Positions 4,088-12,508 of a stretch of DNA of 64,000 nucleotides are shown here, piece by piece; position 1 is the stretch's first letter, and each line of letters starts with the position of its first letter. Made by a program: the position numbers and the translations under genes. The notes under the pieces are model-generated. The model saw nothing but the letters and a program-made list of their open reading frames with translations, was not told the origin of the DNA and did not search any database. Source of the stretch: Mycobacterium sp. (lineage in GTDB: Bacteria > Actinomycetota > Actinomycetes > Mycobacteriales > Mycobacteriaceae); the NCBI GenBank assembly GCA_020438845.1, contig JAGQTV010000017.1:62001-126000 (forward strand), written 5' to 3'.

Positions 4088-4280
4088 TTGTGTTTGTGTG
4101 TGATGGGTGGGCAGTCGGAGAGTTTTTGCGTCATTTGGGGATTGGTTGCTCAAGTCCCGATTGACGGTTGTTTTGCGTGAAAAGCGGGCAATGATTCGTT
4201 CCGCTTGTTGTTTCTCTGGCGCGCGGCGCGCTAAGTGCGTTCGTCAGATACTGCCGCCGCTGACAGGGCATTCTGGGCGG

Positions 4281-6029
4281 GTGGTAGATGTGGCCGTGCC
4301 CGACGGGCGGCTTGCAACGGTGCTGGCGTGGTGGGGACGCCTCGCGGTGGGTGCGGTGTTCGCCATGGCGGTCGTGGACTGGGTGGGCTGGGCGACGGGG
4401 CTGGAGCGGCTGACGCGGTTTTTTCCGTCGTGGCCGCAGATGACCCCGTGGACTGCGGTTCTGGCGGCCGGGTTGGGTGTAGCCATTCTGCTGCAATCAG
4501 GTCAACCGTCATCGGTACGGATCGCCCTGGGAGCTGGCGCGGCGGTGTTGGTGGGCGTGCTCGCGGTGATCTTTCTGGCCGAGTACCTCACCCACCGTTC
4601 GTTCGGGCTGGATGTCGTTTGGTTTCACAACGAGGTTCGTCGGCTGCAGGAAACATTTCCGGGCCGGCCAAGCCCGCGAACGGCCGTCTCGGTTCTCCTG
4701 TTATCGGCCGCGATCACCACGATGCGGGTCGGTTCCAGGCAACGATGGTCCGGCCGAGTGTGGCTGGCGGCTCTGGTGGCCGCAGCCATCATCCCGTTCG
4801 TCGTCATCGCGGCCTACGGGCTCCAAGCGATTGCGCTGGTGGGTATTGCACCCTCGACGGGGATGGGGATCTCGACCGCCCTGTCTGTGCAGTTGTTGGT
4901 CATCGCAGCGGTCTTGGCACGTCCTGACCGACGTCCGATCAGCTGGCTATTGACACGACCGGATGGATGGACCCTGGTTCGACTTGTTGGCATTTTCGCC
5001 GGCCTTCCGCTGCTGTTGGGGGTGTCCCGGCTGCTGTTTCTGACCATCGGTTTCGAGGCCGACCCGGCGCTGGCCTTGGCCGTGACGGTGAGCACGATCA
5101 TCGTGGGCGTTGCCACGTTCTATCTGAGCCAGCGGGAACAGAAACTGCTGATCCAACGCGCCGAAGCCGAGGCGCGTTACCGACTCCTTGCCGACAACGC
5201 CGTGGACATCGTCGAGCATCTTCGCGATCGTCAGATCACCTGGATTTCACCGTCGGTGGAATCTGCCCTGGGCCGGCCGCCCGAGCAGTGGGTGGGCAAT
5301 GACTTCGCCGATTACGTCCATCCCGAGGACCGGGCCATGGTCCTCCGAGCCCAAGAATTGATCGGCGCAGGGCAGTCCTCGGTCGAACGGTTCCGCATCC
5401 GCGCGGCCGACGGCGGCTATCGCTGGGTTGACTGCCTCTGCAAGCCCTACCTCACCGCCAACGGCGACCGCGACGGTGTCATCGCAGCGATGCGGATCGC
5501 TGATGACCAGGTGGAGGCGCAGCGCCGCCTGGAACGGCTGGCCCACTTCGACACCCTCACCGGGCTGGCGAACCGAACGGAGACCATCGCCCGCCTCGAA
5601 AGAGCCCTACGGCAAACGGCCCGCACACCCGGCTCGCATCTGGGCGTGTTGTTCTGCGATATCGACCATTTCAAATCCATCAACGATACGTTCGGACATG
5701 CCGCCGGCGATATCGTCCTGTCCACGGTGGCGGCCCGGGTCCGCGAGTGCGTACGTGAACACGACACGGTCGGACGTATCGGCGGTGACGAAATCCTGGT
5801 CCTGCTCCCCGGGCTACACAATCTCGATGAGGCAGCCGAGGTCGCCGAGAAGATCCGGCTCCACGCCGGACAACCAATCTGCAACGGTGCCAACACCATC
5901 CGGCCTGCGATGAGCATCGGTGTCACCCTGAACCAGCCCGGTGAGTCCGCCTCAGATCTCATGGCCCGAGCCGACGTAGCGATGTATCAAGCCAAAGAAG
6001 CCGGCCGTAACAACGTCACCCGCATCTGA
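4281..6029 (+). CDS. Membrane PAS-GGDEF diguanylate cyclase
   Basis: About 582 residues. The N-terminal ~290 residues hold seven or eight hydrophobic segments, a membrane sensory module of unassigned type. A PAS domain follows (~300-420, ending in a WVDCLCKPY/GVIAAMRIADD PAC-like segment), then a GGDEF domain starting with HFDTLTGLANR (~422). The active-site motif is GGDEI (501-505) and the inhibitory I-site RxxD (REHD, 492-495) is intact, so it should make c-di-GMP from two GTP with product inhibition. The frame is open from GTG 4107, but 4107-4280 has codon use unlike the rest and no ribosome-binding site. I prefer GTG 4281, with GTG 4290 also possible. It stands alone, read away from the tRNA. 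Confidence 0.85.
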   Translation: MVDVAVPDGRLATVLAWWGRLAVGAVFAMAVVDWVGWATGLERLTRFFPSWPQMTPWTAVLAAGLGVAILLQSGQPSSVRIALGAGAAVLVGVLAVIFLAEYLTHRSFGLDVVWFHNEVRRLQETFPGRPSPRTAVSVLLLSAAITTMRVGSRQRWSGRVWLAALVAAAIIPFVVIAAYGLQAIALVGIAPSTGMGISTALSVQLLVIAAVLARPDRRPISWLLTRPDGWTLVRLVGIFAGLPLLLGVSRLLFLTIGFEADPALALAVTVSTIIVGVATFYLSQREQKLLIQRAEAEARYRLLADNAVDIVEHLRDRQITWISPSVESALGRPPEQWVGNDFADYVHPEDRAMVLRAQELIGAGQSSVERFRIRAADGGYRWVDCLCKPYLTANGDRDGVIAAMRIADDQVEAQRRLERLAHFDTLTGLANRTETIARLERALRQTARTPGSHLGVLFCDIDHFKSINDTFGHAAGDIVLSTVAARVRECVREHDTVGRIGGDEILVLLPGLHNLDEAAEVAEKIRLHAGQPICNGANTIRPAMSIGVTLNQPGESASDLMARADVAMYQAKEAGRNNVTRI

Positions 6030-7686: not shown

Positions 7687-9492
7687 GTGCGCAATAAGGG
7701 GCGTGTCGCCGCGATTGCGGCTGGCATGGTGCGATTGCGCCCTTCCCGCCGCCGGTGGCCGTTAGCCGCTCGCGTGGCGGCGTGCACCGCGATTCCCGTC
7801 CTGGCCGGATGGGCGTTCGGATCGGTAGACGCCGGCTTGGTCGCTACCTTGGGAATCTTCACCGCCGACTACGGAACCGACAGGCCGTACGTCAAACGCG
7901 GTATTCAGTCCGCGGTGATCGCGGTGGCACTGTCTGCCGCGGTCACGGTGGGGATGTGGGCGTCGGCTGTGGCATGGATCGCGGTCCTGGCAGTGTCGGC
8001 GGTTGCGGTAGTTGCGGTATGGATCTGTTCTGCCCTGGCCACCGGCCCCCCAGGTGCGTACATGTTCGTCCTGGTTTGCGCTGCCGGAATCGGCGTATCG
8101 GCAGCGCACCTACCGCCCTGGCAGGTCGGCCTGTTGGTGCTTGCCGGAGGCACGGTCGCCTGGCTTGGGGGAATGACCCCCGCGCTCACCGACCCACGCG
8201 GGCCCGAGAAGGAGGCACTGGCGGCTGCCGGAGACGCCGTCGCAAACTATCTCGAGGTGGCTGGCACTCCGGAGGCGGTCGGGGTTCGGCGACGTGCGGC
8301 CGAATCGCTCGCGCGGTCGTGGACGGCGCTCGTCGACTACCAACCTGCCCGTGGCCGTTCGGCCGCACAGTTGATACCGCTACGCGAAGCCAACCACGCT
8401 CTGCACGTTATGTTCGCCGACGGGATGGCGGCGGCACGCCAAGGCGAGGTCATGCCGAACGGCGCCGCGGCCTCCGCCCGCGCCATCGGGACTCTGTCGG
8501 CGAATCCCTCAATCGTCGCCAACCGCGATCCACACCGGCCTCCGCTACCGCCGGTTGCCATCCCGGCCAGGCTCTCCGGTGCAGTCAGGCGGGGATCACA
8601 TGACCGGAGGGTGATGGCGCGGGTCGCGGTGGCAACGCCGTTGACGGGCGCCGCGACAGCGGCGTTAGGTGTCGGCCATGCCTACTGGGCCATGGCCGCG
8701 GCCGTTCTCGTCCTGCACCAGGGCGCACACCTGACAGCGACTCTGCAGCGCGGTACGGAACGAGTGATCGGCACGATGGTCGGGTTGTGCTTCTCCGCCC
8801 TTATTCTGGCTGCCCACCCCCAAGGGCTATGGCTCGTCTTCATCGTCGTCGGACTTCAATTCGGTATCCAGATGTACATCATCGGCAACTATGCCGTTGC
8901 CACGGTATTCATCACGGCGATCGCGCTGACCATCTCCGCCGGTACGCGCCGGGTCGATGTCGGCACTCTGCTCGCCGACCGCGGCCTGGACACCGTGATC
9001 GGATGCGGATTGGGAACCGCGGTGTTTCTGCTGATGGCCCGTCGTCAGGAAGCCCAGCGCCTCACCGAGTCGATCGCCGGGGTGATCGAGGGCACCATCC
9101 GGGCAACCGAATTCATCATAAACAACGACGTGTCTTCCCTTCCGGCCCGCGACGCTCGACGTGCGTTGCAGGACAGCATCTTTGATTTGGATAAGGCTCA
9201 GGAGTCGGCCCGGCACGGATCACACAGCGACCAGGCAGAAGCTGTCCGGCTGGACGGTGCCATCGTCGCCGCGGAAGAACTCGGCTATGCGACAGTTGCG
9301 GCATGCTGGAAAGCCGAGCGGCACATGCCCGGGTTATCCGGGTCCGCGGAGTACCTCACGAGGCTGCGTACCCTCGCGCAGGCGGTGCAGGCGGGAACGA
9401 CAAGCCCTATGTGCGAGGAACTTTCGGTCCTCTGCGCACCGGAAGTGCTTGCATTGGAAAGGGCATGGCGGACTCTCCCGCCAGAAGCCTGA
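7687..9492 (+). CDS. FUSC-family membrane protein (aromatic-acid exporter-like)
   Basis: About 601 residues with two clusters of hydrophobic helices (about residues 25-165 and 315-450), each followed by a soluble region. This duplicated layout is typical of the fusaric acid resistance (FUSC/YccS/AaeB) family. The second half contains the characteristic short basic-Gly stretch GTERVIGTMVGLCFSALIL and an RGLDTVIGCGLGT segment. The family exports aromatic or amphipathic acids, but the substrate here is unknown. The start is uncertain: GTG 7687 or ATG 7726, neither with a clear ribosome-binding site. It is convergent with the GGDEF-EAL gene, only 14 bp apart. Confidence 0.8.
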   Translation: MRNKGRVAAIAAGMVRLRPSRRRWPLAARVAACTAIPVLAGWAFGSVDAGLVATLGIFTADYGTDRPYVKRGIQSAVIAVALSAAVTVGMWASAVAWIAVLAVSAVAVVAVWICSALATGPPGAYMFVLVCAAGIGVSAAHLPPWQVGLLVLAGGTVAWLGGMTPALTDPRGPEKEALAAAGDAVANYLEVAGTPEAVGVRRRAAESLARSWTALVDYQPARGRSAAQLIPLREANHALHVMFADGMAAARQGEVMPNGAAASARAIGTLSANPSIVANRDPHRPPLPPVAIPARLSGAVRRGSHDRRVMARVAVATPLTGAATAALGVGHAYWAMAAAVLVLHQGAHLTATLQRGTERVIGTMVGLCFSALILAAHPQGLWLVFIVVGLQFGIQMYIIGNYAVATVFITAIALTISAGTRRVDVGTLLADRGLDTVIGCGLGTAVFLLMARRQEAQRLTESIAGVIEGTIRATEFIINNDVSSLPARDARRALQDSIFDLDKAQESARHGSHSDQAEAVRLDGAIVAAEELGYATVAACWKAERHMPGLSGSAEYLTRLRTLAQAVQAGTTSPMCEELSVLCAPEVLALERAWRTLPPEA

Positions 9493-9506: not shown

Positions 9507-11912
9507 TTATGGTGTTGCACCAGAACGCACTTCGAGCGGCGCTACCGAGATGGAGCACACCCCACCTGCTTCGAGCAACTCGCGCGCGGCGTCGAAGGTC
9601 ATGGCGCGGCGGTAGAGGAAGCCCTGGGCGTGCATGGCTCCCATGGCGATCAAGGTGTCGCGTTCCGCGATGGTCTCGACCCCCTCGACGACGAGGTCGA
9701 GGGCCAGAGCCTTGGCGAGCGCTACTACCGACTGCACGACGGCGCGTTGTTTGTTGTTGGCCTCGTCGATGTCGGCGACGAACGAGCGGTCGAGTTTGAT
9801 CTGATCGACCGGAAGGGACCGCAGCTGGGTCAATGACGAGTAACCGGTTCCGAAATCGTCCAGGGAAACCCGTACGCCGGCTTCTCGCAGCCTGCCTAGC
9901 ACCTCATGCGCGACTTTGACGTCAACGAGGGCGTGCTCGGTGAGTTCGATGATCAGCGCGTCCGGCGGGACGTTAGCGGAGCGCAGTAAAGCGAGCACTT
10001 CGTCGGCGAACCCCGGCTCGCGAACCTGGCGCGCGGTCACGTTAACCGAGATTGTCAATCCGTGGGCCAATCCCGCCGCCCGCCACTCGGCGAGGTTTCT
10101 GATCCCCTCTTCCAATACCCAGTGGCCGATTTCAACGATCATGCCGTTGTCCTCGGCGAGGGGAATGAACATGTCGGGGCTGAGGTGCGGCAGTCCGGGC
10201 CGGTTCCATTGCAGCAGTAGCTCGAAGCCTGTGACGGCGCCGGTGTCGAGCATCACCAGCGGCTGGGCTCCCACGCGCAATTGATCGCGTTCCAAGGCAC
10301 GCCGAAGAGCCGCGTCCAGGTCAAGACGTTCCGCGACCTCGGCCTCGAGGTGGGCGTCATAGACGTTGATGTGGTTGCCCTCAGTGAGTTTGGCCCGGTA
10401 CATCGCAACGTCGGCCTCGCGCATCAGTTCCGCAGCGGATTCGGTGTCCGAATCCGCGAACGTGAGCCCGATGCTGGTTCCGACGAATGCCTCCTTCCCG
10501 TCGAGGTCGTACGGGGCGCTCAGCGCGGTGTGGATCCGTTCCGCCAAGGCCACCCCGTACTCGCGATCGGGCAGATCTGGGCAGAGGATGACGAACTCAT
10601 CCCCGCCCAGTCGCGCCACCGTGTCGGTGTCACGTGTGGCACTGGACAGGCGCTGCGCGGCCTTGATGAGCAATTGGTCGCCGGCGGCGTGGCCCAGTGA
10701 GTCATTGACCATTTTGAAACGGTCGAGGTCGCAGAACAGCAGCGCCAGTTGAGCTCCGCCGTCGCCGATGGCAGACAGGCTGTCCGCGAGGCGGGTGAGA
10801 AGCAGGCTGCGGTTGGCCAGCCCGGTGAGCGCGTCGCGGTTGGCCTGCTGGGCCAGCTTCGCAGCCGAGGCCTCGCGCTCCAGCGCAAGGGATACCAGGT
10901 CGCGGCAACGCAGGAAGGCCGTGCGGGCGCTTTCGTCCAGTGTGCTTGCGTCTCCGAACACCTCGAACGCCCCAACGGTATTCGTTGTGGCGGCGTGGAA
11001 AGTTCGACTCCAGGCTGGCGTCCCGGAAACGTCCGCATGCGGAGGCTGCGTTACCGACAGGGTGCCCGCGCTGATGCGCACCGCATGCTGTCCGGACACC
11101 GATGCTGCGAGTTCGGCGACTTGTCGCAAGACGGTGGAAAGCGCCTCGCCGGTAGCGATCTGCTGCAGGAGATGGGCCTGCGCTCGATCGAGGAACGAGA
11201 CCTGGGCGAGTCTCTTCTTGGTGGCCTGCAATTCCTGTCGTTCCTGATCCAGCGCGCGCCGGGCAGCTCGGTACTGCCGCCCTACATCGGCAGCGACCCA
11301 CGCGAGCAACGCCGCACCGACGAGGAGGGTAGCGATGAGGAGCATTAAGTTGATGAATCGGCTGCGGAGTAGGGCGCTGTTGCTAGCGCGCGCATCCGTG
11401 TGCAGTTGAGCGGCAGTACTGTCGGCCAGGTGGCGGGCCGCTTCGGATAGCGCTTCGGTTCGGGGCAGAACGATCGTTGCCCAACGCTCCCGTTCGCCGA
11501 CTGGGAGGACGCCGGGCGGCATCTGGCCTATGGCATCATCCAACGCGGTGAGGCTCGCGCGAAACTCCGGCGGGACGGAGTCACCGACCGGGATTCCCTG
11601 CCCGTCCACCACCGACAGTCGTCGGCCCAACATCGCGCGGACCATTTGCACGTCGCGCCGGGATGCGAACCCGAGGAGGTAGCGCTCGGATTCGTCGATG
11701 TAGGAGAGCGCCTCGCGCATGGTGTAAGACAGGTTGTTCCCAACGGACTCGGTCCGGGCGAATGTTTCGGTGTACCTGCGCTGAGTGGCCGAGGCCGCCC
11801 AGTTGGTTGCCACCAACGCGATGATCATCAGTAACGCGACAACGGCAAGTGCCCACTGTCCGCGGTTGAGACGAAGCCGCGGATCTGGGGAGGTACCCCC
11901 CTCGGTGGGCAT
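9507..11912 (-). CDS. Membrane GGDEF-EAL protein (cyclic-di-GMP turnover)
   Basis: About 801 residues. Membrane helices at ~20-41 and ~186-209 bracket an extracytoplasmic helical sensor region (CHASE3-like in layout). A linker and GAF-like region follow, then GGDEF and EAL domains. GGDEF is canonical (436-440) with an intact I-site RDTD (427-430). In the EAL domain the signature motif is ELL with Q in place of the usual R (residue 564 onward), but the other catalytic segments are kept: SVNVTARQ, ELTEHALV, DDFGTGYSSL, KLDRSF and EGVET. Both activities are therefore plausible. The ATG at 11912 overlaps the TGA of the upstream lipoprotein gene (TGATG), which decides this start over an ATG at 11969 that would overlap by 58 bp. 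Confidence 0.88.
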   Translation of the reverse strand: MPTEGGTSPDPRLRLNRGQWALAVVALLMIIALVATNWAASATQRRYTETFARTESVGNNLSYTMREALSYIDESERYLLGFASRRDVQMVRAMLGRRLSVVDGQGIPVGDSVPPEFRASLTALDDAIGQMPPGVLPVGERERWATIVLPRTEALSEAARHLADSTAAQLHTDARASNSALLRSRFINLMLLIATLLVGAALLAWVAADVGRQYRAARRALDQERQELQATKKRLAQVSFLDRAQAHLLQQIATGEALSTVLRQVAELAASVSGQHAVRISAGTLSVTQPPHADVSGTPAWSRTFHAATTNTVGAFEVFGDASTLDESARTAFLRCRDLVSLALEREASAAKLAQQANRDALTGLANRSLLLTRLADSLSAIGDGGAQLALLFCDLDRFKMVNDSLGHAAGDQLLIKAAQRLSSATRDTDTVARLGGDEFVILCPDLPDREYGVALAERIHTALSAPYDLDGKEAFVGTSIGLTFADSDTESAAELMREADVAMYRAKLTEGNHINVYDAHLEAEVAERLDLDAALRRALERDQLRVGAQPLVMLDTGAVTGFELLLQWNRPGLPHLSPDMFIPLAEDNGMIVEIGHWVLEEGIRNLAEWRAAGLAHGLTISVNVTARQVREPGFADEVLALLRSANVPPDALIIELTEHALVDVKVAHEVLGRLREAGVRVSLDDFGTGYSSLTQLRSLPVDQIKLDRSFVADIDEANNKQRAVVQSVVALAKALALDLVVEGVETIAERDTLIAMGAMHAQGFLYRRAMTFDAARELLEAGGVCSISVAPLEVRSGATP

Positions 11913-12508
11913 CAGGGTCTTGGTGCCGCTGGACTGGTCACGGTGATCGATGCCAGGCTCCAATTCCATGCATCGAGCACGGCGGCCAGTGGCGTTCCAT
12001 CGGGAAAGACGATGCGAATCGGTCCGCCTTGGTCGTAAGGGATGGGGGCTCCGTCGCGCTCGGTGGCAATCAGCGCTTTCGACTCGACCATCGGTGTGAC
12101 GGAACTGGAGTAGTGGTAGTCATTGACAGCCCTGGTGTCGATGGTGGCGCTATCGGGGATTCCGGCCTTGGACAGGACGGTGGCGAGCGGAACGCCGCGG
12201 AACGTCTGGCGCCTCTTGACGAACGGTTCGTCGAGGGTAATCGTGGTGGTACCAAGTGCGTTGAGTTGCTCGAGTGTGAGGGACAGCGGCGTGTTGCCAC
12301 CGTTCACGGTCAGAACTGGTTCGTTGGGTGCCGCTGGATCGATCGACGGAACGCCGTAAGGATTAGTGGTAGGCGGGCCGACCTGCGACGCGGCCGCTCC
12401 GGCAGACGAGGACGTGCCAGGGGTACTCGAATTGCCTCCGCAAGCGGACAGGCCGAAGATGGCCACAGCACCCGCTACGCCGACAGCTATCCACCGGTTG
12501 CGCACCAT
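11912..12508 (-). CDS. Lipoprotein with a molybdopterin-oxidoreductase-like (sulfite oxidase fold) domain, no molybdenum ligand
   Basis: 198 residues. The signal peptide ends in the lipobox LSAC (acylated Cys23), then a Ser/Thr-rich linker and a ~130-residue domain. Segments such as LTLEQLNALGTTTITLDEP, FRGVPLATVLSKAGI, GPIRIVFPDG and the final AWNWSLASITV fit the small molybdopterin-binding-like domains found in exported proteins. Cys23 is the only cysteine, so the cysteine that ligates molybdenum in true sulfite oxidases is missing and catalysis is unlikely. The stop codon overlaps the start of the GGDEF-EAL gene, so the two are made together. I infer a ligand-binding sensory subunit on the outer face of the membrane. 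Confidence 0.75.
   Translation of the reverse strand: MVRNRWIAVGVAGAVAIFGLSACGGNSSTPGTSSSAGAAASQVGPPTTNPYGVPSIDPAAPNEPVLTVNGGNTPLSLTLEQLNALGTTTITLDEPFVKRRQTFRGVPLATVLSKAGIPDSATIDTRAVNDYHYSSSVTPMVESKALIATERDGAPIPYDQGGPIRIVFPDGTPLAAVLDAWNWSLASITVTSPAAPRP

Follow-up and report, generated by a model that had tools for sequence, protein, structure and literature searches.

A short lipoprotein and the transmembrane GGDEF-EAL protein encoded directly downstream of it in a mycobacterial genome can be read as an actinobacterial, lipid-anchored version of the switch formed by PruR and its receptors, a reading to which we give a probability of about 0.72. Both genes lie in a stretch of 64,000 nucleotides from Mycobacterium sp. 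(GenBank assembly GCA_020438845.1, contig JAGQTV010000017.1, positions 62,001 to 126,000 of the forward strand), hereafter the window. PruR and DcpA of Agrobacterium, in the Proteobacteria, constitute a pterin sensor that controls cyclic diguanosine monophosphate (c-di-GMP), as described in an excerpt of PMC13259868. An earlier note on this DNA had already proposed a ligand-sensing lipoprotein controlling c-di-GMP across the membrane; the analogy with PruR-DcpA, the closest relatives, supports such a role, but the principle was already known in Proteobacteria, and what is new here is the phylum, the lipid anchoring and the changed output. The primary studies of PruR-DcpA are said to be those of Greenwich (2024) and Feirer (2015), known to us through a review. 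A literature search, mostly of titles and abstract openings, found no description of a lipoprotein-receptor pair in Actinobacteria. If the reading is right, pterin signalling would be extended from Proteobacteria to a second phylum, and mycobacterial c-di-GMP would have an input from outside the cytoplasm for which a candidate ligand can be named; the question of the ligand is directly testable with purified domains.

A PruR-like domain behind a lipobox

The lipoprotein starts with a signal peptide and a lipobox (LSAC, with Cys23), followed by a flexible linker up to residue ~58 and a domain of the sulfite oxidase (SUOX)/PruR type at residues ~60-194, within which the Pfam family PF00174 (Oxidored_molyb) is matched between residues 66 and 170 (E = 3.1e-12). 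Cys23 is the only cysteine among its 198 residues and the metal-ligating cysteine is therefore absent, which together with the Pfam match bears out the previous description of a molybdopterin-oxidoreductase-like domain devoid of that ligand. The lipobox cysteine is invariant in the mycobacterial rows of the alignment (11/11), and the protein is predicted to be exported as a lipoprotein. When the predicted structure was compared with SUOX-like folds, as the earlier note had proposed, the result was a strong match to a sensor fold, and specifically to PruR: the best matches over the length of the domain were the solved PruR pterin-binding proteins, with sulfite oxidases behind them.

The Pfam name and the SUOX fold also raise the alternative of a molybdenum enzyme whose gene merely neighbours that of the receptor. 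Such an enzyme was rejected for want of any cysteine other than Cys23; moreover, the SUOX enzymes matched in the PDB have 261-463 residues versus a single domain of ~135 residues in the lipoprotein. The sulfite oxidase family (SorA, SoxC, YedY) shares the fold of this domain, whereas the missing molybdenum ligand, the single short domain and the separate branch of SUOX enzymes in the lipoprotein tree set the lipoprotein apart. With a pairing that is strict in 11 of 11 genomes (see below), the neighbour-only part has been refuted as well, and we regard the probability of this alternative as close to negligible.

In the alignment with PruR, the ALNDY stretch of the latter corresponds to AVNDY in the window protein, and Tyr104, Asn102 and Trp160 to Tyr131, Asn129 and Trp183, respectively. 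Trp160 and Tyr104 are the pterin contacts of A. tumefaciens PruR, according to the same excerpt (PMC13259868). Tyr131, Gly161-Gly162-Pro163, Arg165 and Trp183 are invariant in all 58 rows of the lipoprotein alignment, an invariance that for Trp183 comes partly by choice, its position being contained in one of the two patterns of the genome scan described below, and Tyr131 stands in neither of them. In sequence and predicted structure, the lipoprotein carries every PruR feature that could be tested here, i.e., a single SUOX-type domain, no molybdenum-ligating cysteine, the tyrosine and the tryptophan, and export. The best fold match to PruR and the two kept residues lead us to read the pair as working like PruR-DcpA, in which case the lipoprotein would probably bind a pterin. 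The likeness to PruR-DcpA thus spans an upstream SUOX-like protein without the molybdenum-ligating cysteine, with the same fold and the same Tyr and Trp, and a coupled downstream gene (the coupling seen here being that of gene order and overlap only) for a receptor with two transmembrane (TM) helices, GGDEF and EAL. On the other hand, PruR of A. tumefaciens is soluble and periplasmic in contrast to this lipoprotein, and the host phylum is Actinomycetota.

A sporadic but inseparable pair

Among 148 Mycobacterium genomes, 11 contain the lipoprotein (E = 5e-70 or better), and these same 11 contain the extracytoplasmic receptor region, which adjoins the lipoprotein on the downstream side in 11 of 11 cases; the neighbourhood presumed for relatives thus held, with the same gene order throughout. 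The remaining 35 of the 46 genomes with matches at E = 0.001 gave weak ones (E = 4.5e-6 or weaker), which from their extent were judged to be mostly SUOX-enzyme domains or signal peptides. Within Mycobacterium, therefore, the pair is sporadic but inseparable. In the 10 Mycobacterium relatives that were fetched (10/10), the receptor has a possible start codon that shares 1 or 4 bases with the end of the lipoprotein gene. The loci of these relatives (~10-12 kb) contain the pair at E = 1e-15 but not one of its five neighbours in the window, namely a glycosyltransferase, FUSC, TetR and PAP2 gene (by Pfam) and a P450 gene (by eye). The strict pairing and the absence of shared flanking genes lead us to reject a chance neighbourhood, and flanking genes that differ around a recurring pair indicate that its two members were passed on or transferred together.

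A pattern scan of a genome collection holding one genome per species (84,980 species) yielded 57 actinobacterial loci, of which 19 belong to mycobacteria, judged by name or tree, and 38 to other Actinomycetota. Nanopelagicaceae and Rhodoluna, named among the latter, are freshwater lineages. In 54 of the 57 loci there is a downstream protein with two predicted TM helices starting 130-200 residues apart, the other three being a locus with a broken gene (L068), one whose contig ends soon after (L080) and one with a single helix by the script (L105). From position 5594 onward of L068, a metagenome-assembled genome (MAG) of Mycobacterium, an intact lipoprotein gene is followed by a disrupted receptor gene, unless the assembly contains an error. 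Two other MAGs, labelled Bifidobacterium breve (L081) and Streptomycetaceae (L100), fall among uncultured actinobacteria in the tree of lipoproteins, and their labels may be wrong.

Profile searches at E = 1e-12 covered 394 genomes of the class, with the family present in 14 (4 of them Mycobacterium), and 396 of the phylum, with the family present in 8 (3 of them Mycobacterium). Fifteen of these loci were fetched; 8 have contigs as long as those of loci from the scan, and 7 were counted as new beyond the 57. The receptor lies next door in 6 of the 7, and in L150 a stop breaks up the lipoprotein match. At the level of the order, a search at E = 1e-8 gave 13 of 298 genomes, of which 4 were strong Mycobacterium matches and 9, from other genomes, did not exceed E = 4.5e-14 in strength; the locus set includes neither these 9 nor three further weak matches (E = 7e-13 to 1e-14), nor G999 (E = 4e-28).

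The distances among lipoproteins and among sensor domains correlate closely (r = 0.89 over 55 pairs; 0 of 2000 permutations as high), which we take as a sign of joint inheritance of the partners, not of contact. In place of co-folding, a fused single-chain model was built from the lipoprotein domain and the sensor of L099, read through the intervening stop; the alignment of the second structure prediction (A4) held 7 read-through rows, 38 of the 57 lipoprotein rows and 36 of the 54 sensor rows. The fused model reached a mean predicted local distance difference test (pLDDT) of 91.3 and a predicted template modelling score (pTM) of 0.78, with linker residues 154-169 below 50. Such a pTM is above what we would expect for unlinked domains (a judgement made with no control), and the model leans towards a defined placement of the lipoprotein domain against the sensor, although it does not prove one.

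A two-helix receptor with exchangeable outputs

A crude hydropathy script places the TM helices of the window receptor at residues ~21-39 and within 180-205, and a third match at 724, lying in the EAL domain, was taken as false; the loop between two membrane helices that had been put at 42-185 stands approximately. The extracytoplasmic domain (~42-180) is helical according to the model of its relative L099, and is followed by a cytoplasmic linker up to ~350 without Pfam match, a GGDEF domain (357-513, E = 2e-44) with an intact motif, and an EAL domain (534-769, E = 8.5e-65) with ELLLQ instead of ExLxR. A GAF domain suspected by eye between the membrane and GGDEF was discarded, with 0 Pfam matches among 51 receptors at E = 0.001. 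The actinobacterial sensor domain contains a helix whose R86, R92 and R98 are invariant in 51 of 51 rows, and a Foldseek search with the sensor part of the fused model returned helical bundles of low similarity only (McpZ, E = 3.9e-3; NarQ). By the same script, the extracytoplasmic part comprises ~140 residues in the window receptor versus 135-159 in 10 proteobacterial receptors; an excerpt of PMC13259868 gives ~190 residues with two flanking TM helices for the DcpA type.

A look at the cytoplasmic end of the 51 complete receptors (the window's included, the broken one and six cut by contig ends excluded) revealed Pfam matches to GGDEF in 42, EAL in 39, HisKA plus HATPase in 9, Response_reg in 2 and Hpt in 2. 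The two receiver-bearing receptors by motif are those of L058 (protein P0003) and L074, whose lipoproteins lie closest to the window's in the tree, with identities of 75 and 78 percent. The receptor of L034, a locus whose contig is as long as that of L058, keeps a sensor and cytoplasmic linker like those of the window protein up to ~350 (52 percent identity) and then continues into a hybrid kinase output. Histidine-kinase signatures replace the c-di-GMP domains in receptors of 483-594 residues at seven non-mycobacterial actinobacterial loci (L086, L088, L093-L095, L105 and L110), two of which, L094 and L095, are named Nanopelagicaceae. These predicted architectures show the sensor as a module, with one lipoprotein-receptor front end placed before GGDEF-EAL, GGDEF, EAL or histidine-kinase outputs, Nanopelagicaceae included. 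Such swapping parallels the proteobacterial DcpA and DTB types: the kinase outputs of L058, L074 and the seven other loci resemble PruR-DTB (TorS/BaeS-like sensor kinases), although the kinases of L058 and L074 add receiver and Hpt domains and the window receptor is a GGDEF-EAL protein.

The EAL motif reads ExLxQ in 17 of 17 mycobacterial GGDEF-EAL receptors versus ExLxR in 22 of 22 other actinobacterial EAL receptors. The genome of the window has 28 EAL matches, some of them pieces, in 118 contigs; 15 of these loci were fetched, namely the window gene, 2 that the script could not read and 12 others that keep the arginine, one of them with V for L. According to an excerpt of PMC10333796, it is the ExLxR motif that decides whether catalytically inactive EAL domains bind c-di-GMP. 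The ExLxQ motif therefore suggests that the phosphodiesterase side of the mycobacterial receptors may be weak and, with GGDEF intact, the output would be expected to lean to c-di-GMP synthesis over degradation, in contrast to the DcpA of Agrobacterium, which is phosphodiesterase-biased.

A changed ExLxR could also speak for the opposite direction of signalling, in which the GGDEF-EAL protein would sense c-di-GMP in the cytoplasm and act on the lipoprotein outside in the manner of LapD, since degenerate EAL domains can be receptors (excerpt of PMC10333796). However, the changed residue belongs to the very motif on which c-di-GMP binding is said to depend, the GGDEF motif is unaltered, and the histidine-kinase outputs of relatives with the same kind of sensor fit outside-in signalling, which makes inside-out signalling quite improbable. 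LapD-LapG and other transmembrane GGDEF-EAL receptors (of which that excerpt covers LapD) do resemble the pair in joining a transmembrane GGDEF-EAL protein with an extracytoplasmic partner, but the partner in the window is a SUOX-fold lipoprotein instead of a protease, and the signal probably runs inward.

Evidence against a pterin switch

Several observations weigh against the PruR-like reading. The ExLxQ change questions the phosphodiesterase half of the window receptor, and contact between lipoprotein and receptor is something we infer. The conservation of WNW and EPFV in the 57 loci is partly built in, both stretches being scan patterns, and none of the NCBIfam models scored over its cut-off with the lipoprotein (the best, SorT, at 20 bits versus 570). 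Furthermore, a WX7E motif after TM1, counted within 60 residues of the start of that helix, occurs in 6 of 10 proteobacterial receptors but in 0 of the 55 from actinobacteria, that of the window among them; the actinobacterial domain is marked instead by the helix with the three invariant arginines. Homology between actinobacterial and proteobacterial sensors is only weakly visible, with hhalign probabilities of 82.5 when the TM helices are included (score 41.0, versus 16.6 and 16.1 reversed) and of 5.8 and 7.8 without them (scores 21.5 and 23.2, the latter versus 16.3 and 12.8 reversed and at most 14.1 in 40 shuffles). In the hhalign alignment the E of WX7E falls on a conserved Glu of the actinobacterial domain and the W does not align. 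The receptor is consequently classed only as one that works like DcpA. As for RERWATIVLPRTE, towards the distal end of the loop in the window receptor, it was not counted as WX7E, being a WX8E in a different place, with V in 2 of 11 rows.

A further point concerns the source of the ligand. Nothing over the cut-off for a FolM-type pteridine reductase was found in the genome of the window, where NF005066, presumably the FolM model, reached at best 84.1 bits versus 249, a cut-off passed in one of 14 control genomes; the ligand may therefore be made another way or come from outside. Vibrio cholerae likewise lacks PruA, according to an excerpt of PMC13259868, and a paper on pterins released by cyanobacteria stands, as a title, in the reference list of that source.

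The missing reductase match and WX7E, together with a position equivalent to Asn102 that varies in the mycobacterial clade (NDY, DDY, DHY, and also NAY and NSY), point to an alternative in which the architecture is the same and the input is not a pterin: the PruR pocket would have been adapted to a different small molecule, or redox or envelope state would be reported by a lipoprotein that binds no ligand. Against it, the lipoprotein retains Tyr131 and Trp183, the two named pterin contacts, and Tyr131 is present in 58 of 58 rows although it stood in none of the scan patterns; also, a change of N to D at 102 is reported within PruR groups C and D in the excerpt of PMC13259868. We hold a non-pterin input to be rather unlikely.

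Proposed mechanism

Under the preferred reading, a pterin-responsive PruR-type switch, Cys23 would anchor the lipoprotein on the outer face of the cytoplasmic membrane, where the SUOX-type domain without molybdenum ligand would bind a small pterin through Tyr131 and Trp183. The ligand-loaded lipoprotein would then dock on the helical domain of the receptor (~42-180), and the signal would cross the two TM helices to the GGDEF-EAL output to set cellular c-di-GMP, presumably toward synthesis by GGDEF given the ExLxQ motif. More tentatively, and with the odds against it, we suggest that water-living actinobacteria, some environmental mycobacteria among them, sense extracellular pterins (e.g., cyanobacterial ones) through a lipid-anchored PruR, and that the mycobacterial clade has been rewired to c-di-GMP synthesis instead of breakdown.

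Gene layout and neighbouring observations

The coordinates of the pair are collected in Table 1. The base shared by stop and start in TGATG, as seen in the earlier note, was confirmed at the same coordinates. For the receptor there is an alternative, longer in-frame start at 11969, which would give a protein of 820 residues.

Table 1. Coupled genes and their overlap (window positions)
Feature	Position	Strand	Remarks
PruR-like lipoprotein	11912..12508	minus	198 aa
GGDEF-EAL receptor	9507..11912	minus	801 aa
Stop/start overlap TGATG	11910..11914	minus	TGA and ATG share base 11912

A gene for a FUSC-type membrane protein (7687-9492, plus strand) converges on the pair, with its end 15 bases away from that of the receptor gene; it was not found in the loci of the 10 relatives. 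About 3.5 kb from the pair and on the opposite strand, a second diguanylate-cyclase-like gene (4107-6029, plus strand) encodes hydrophobic segments, a PAS-like region recognised by eye and a GGDE motif.

Outside Actinobacteria, PruR and a hybrid sensor kinase are encoded beside type IV secretion or tra genes in conjugative plasmids of E. coli and Serratia (L119 and L122). Plasmid records matching PruR numbered 631, 265 of them from Klebsiella, and a possible influence of pterins on conjugation would merit attention.
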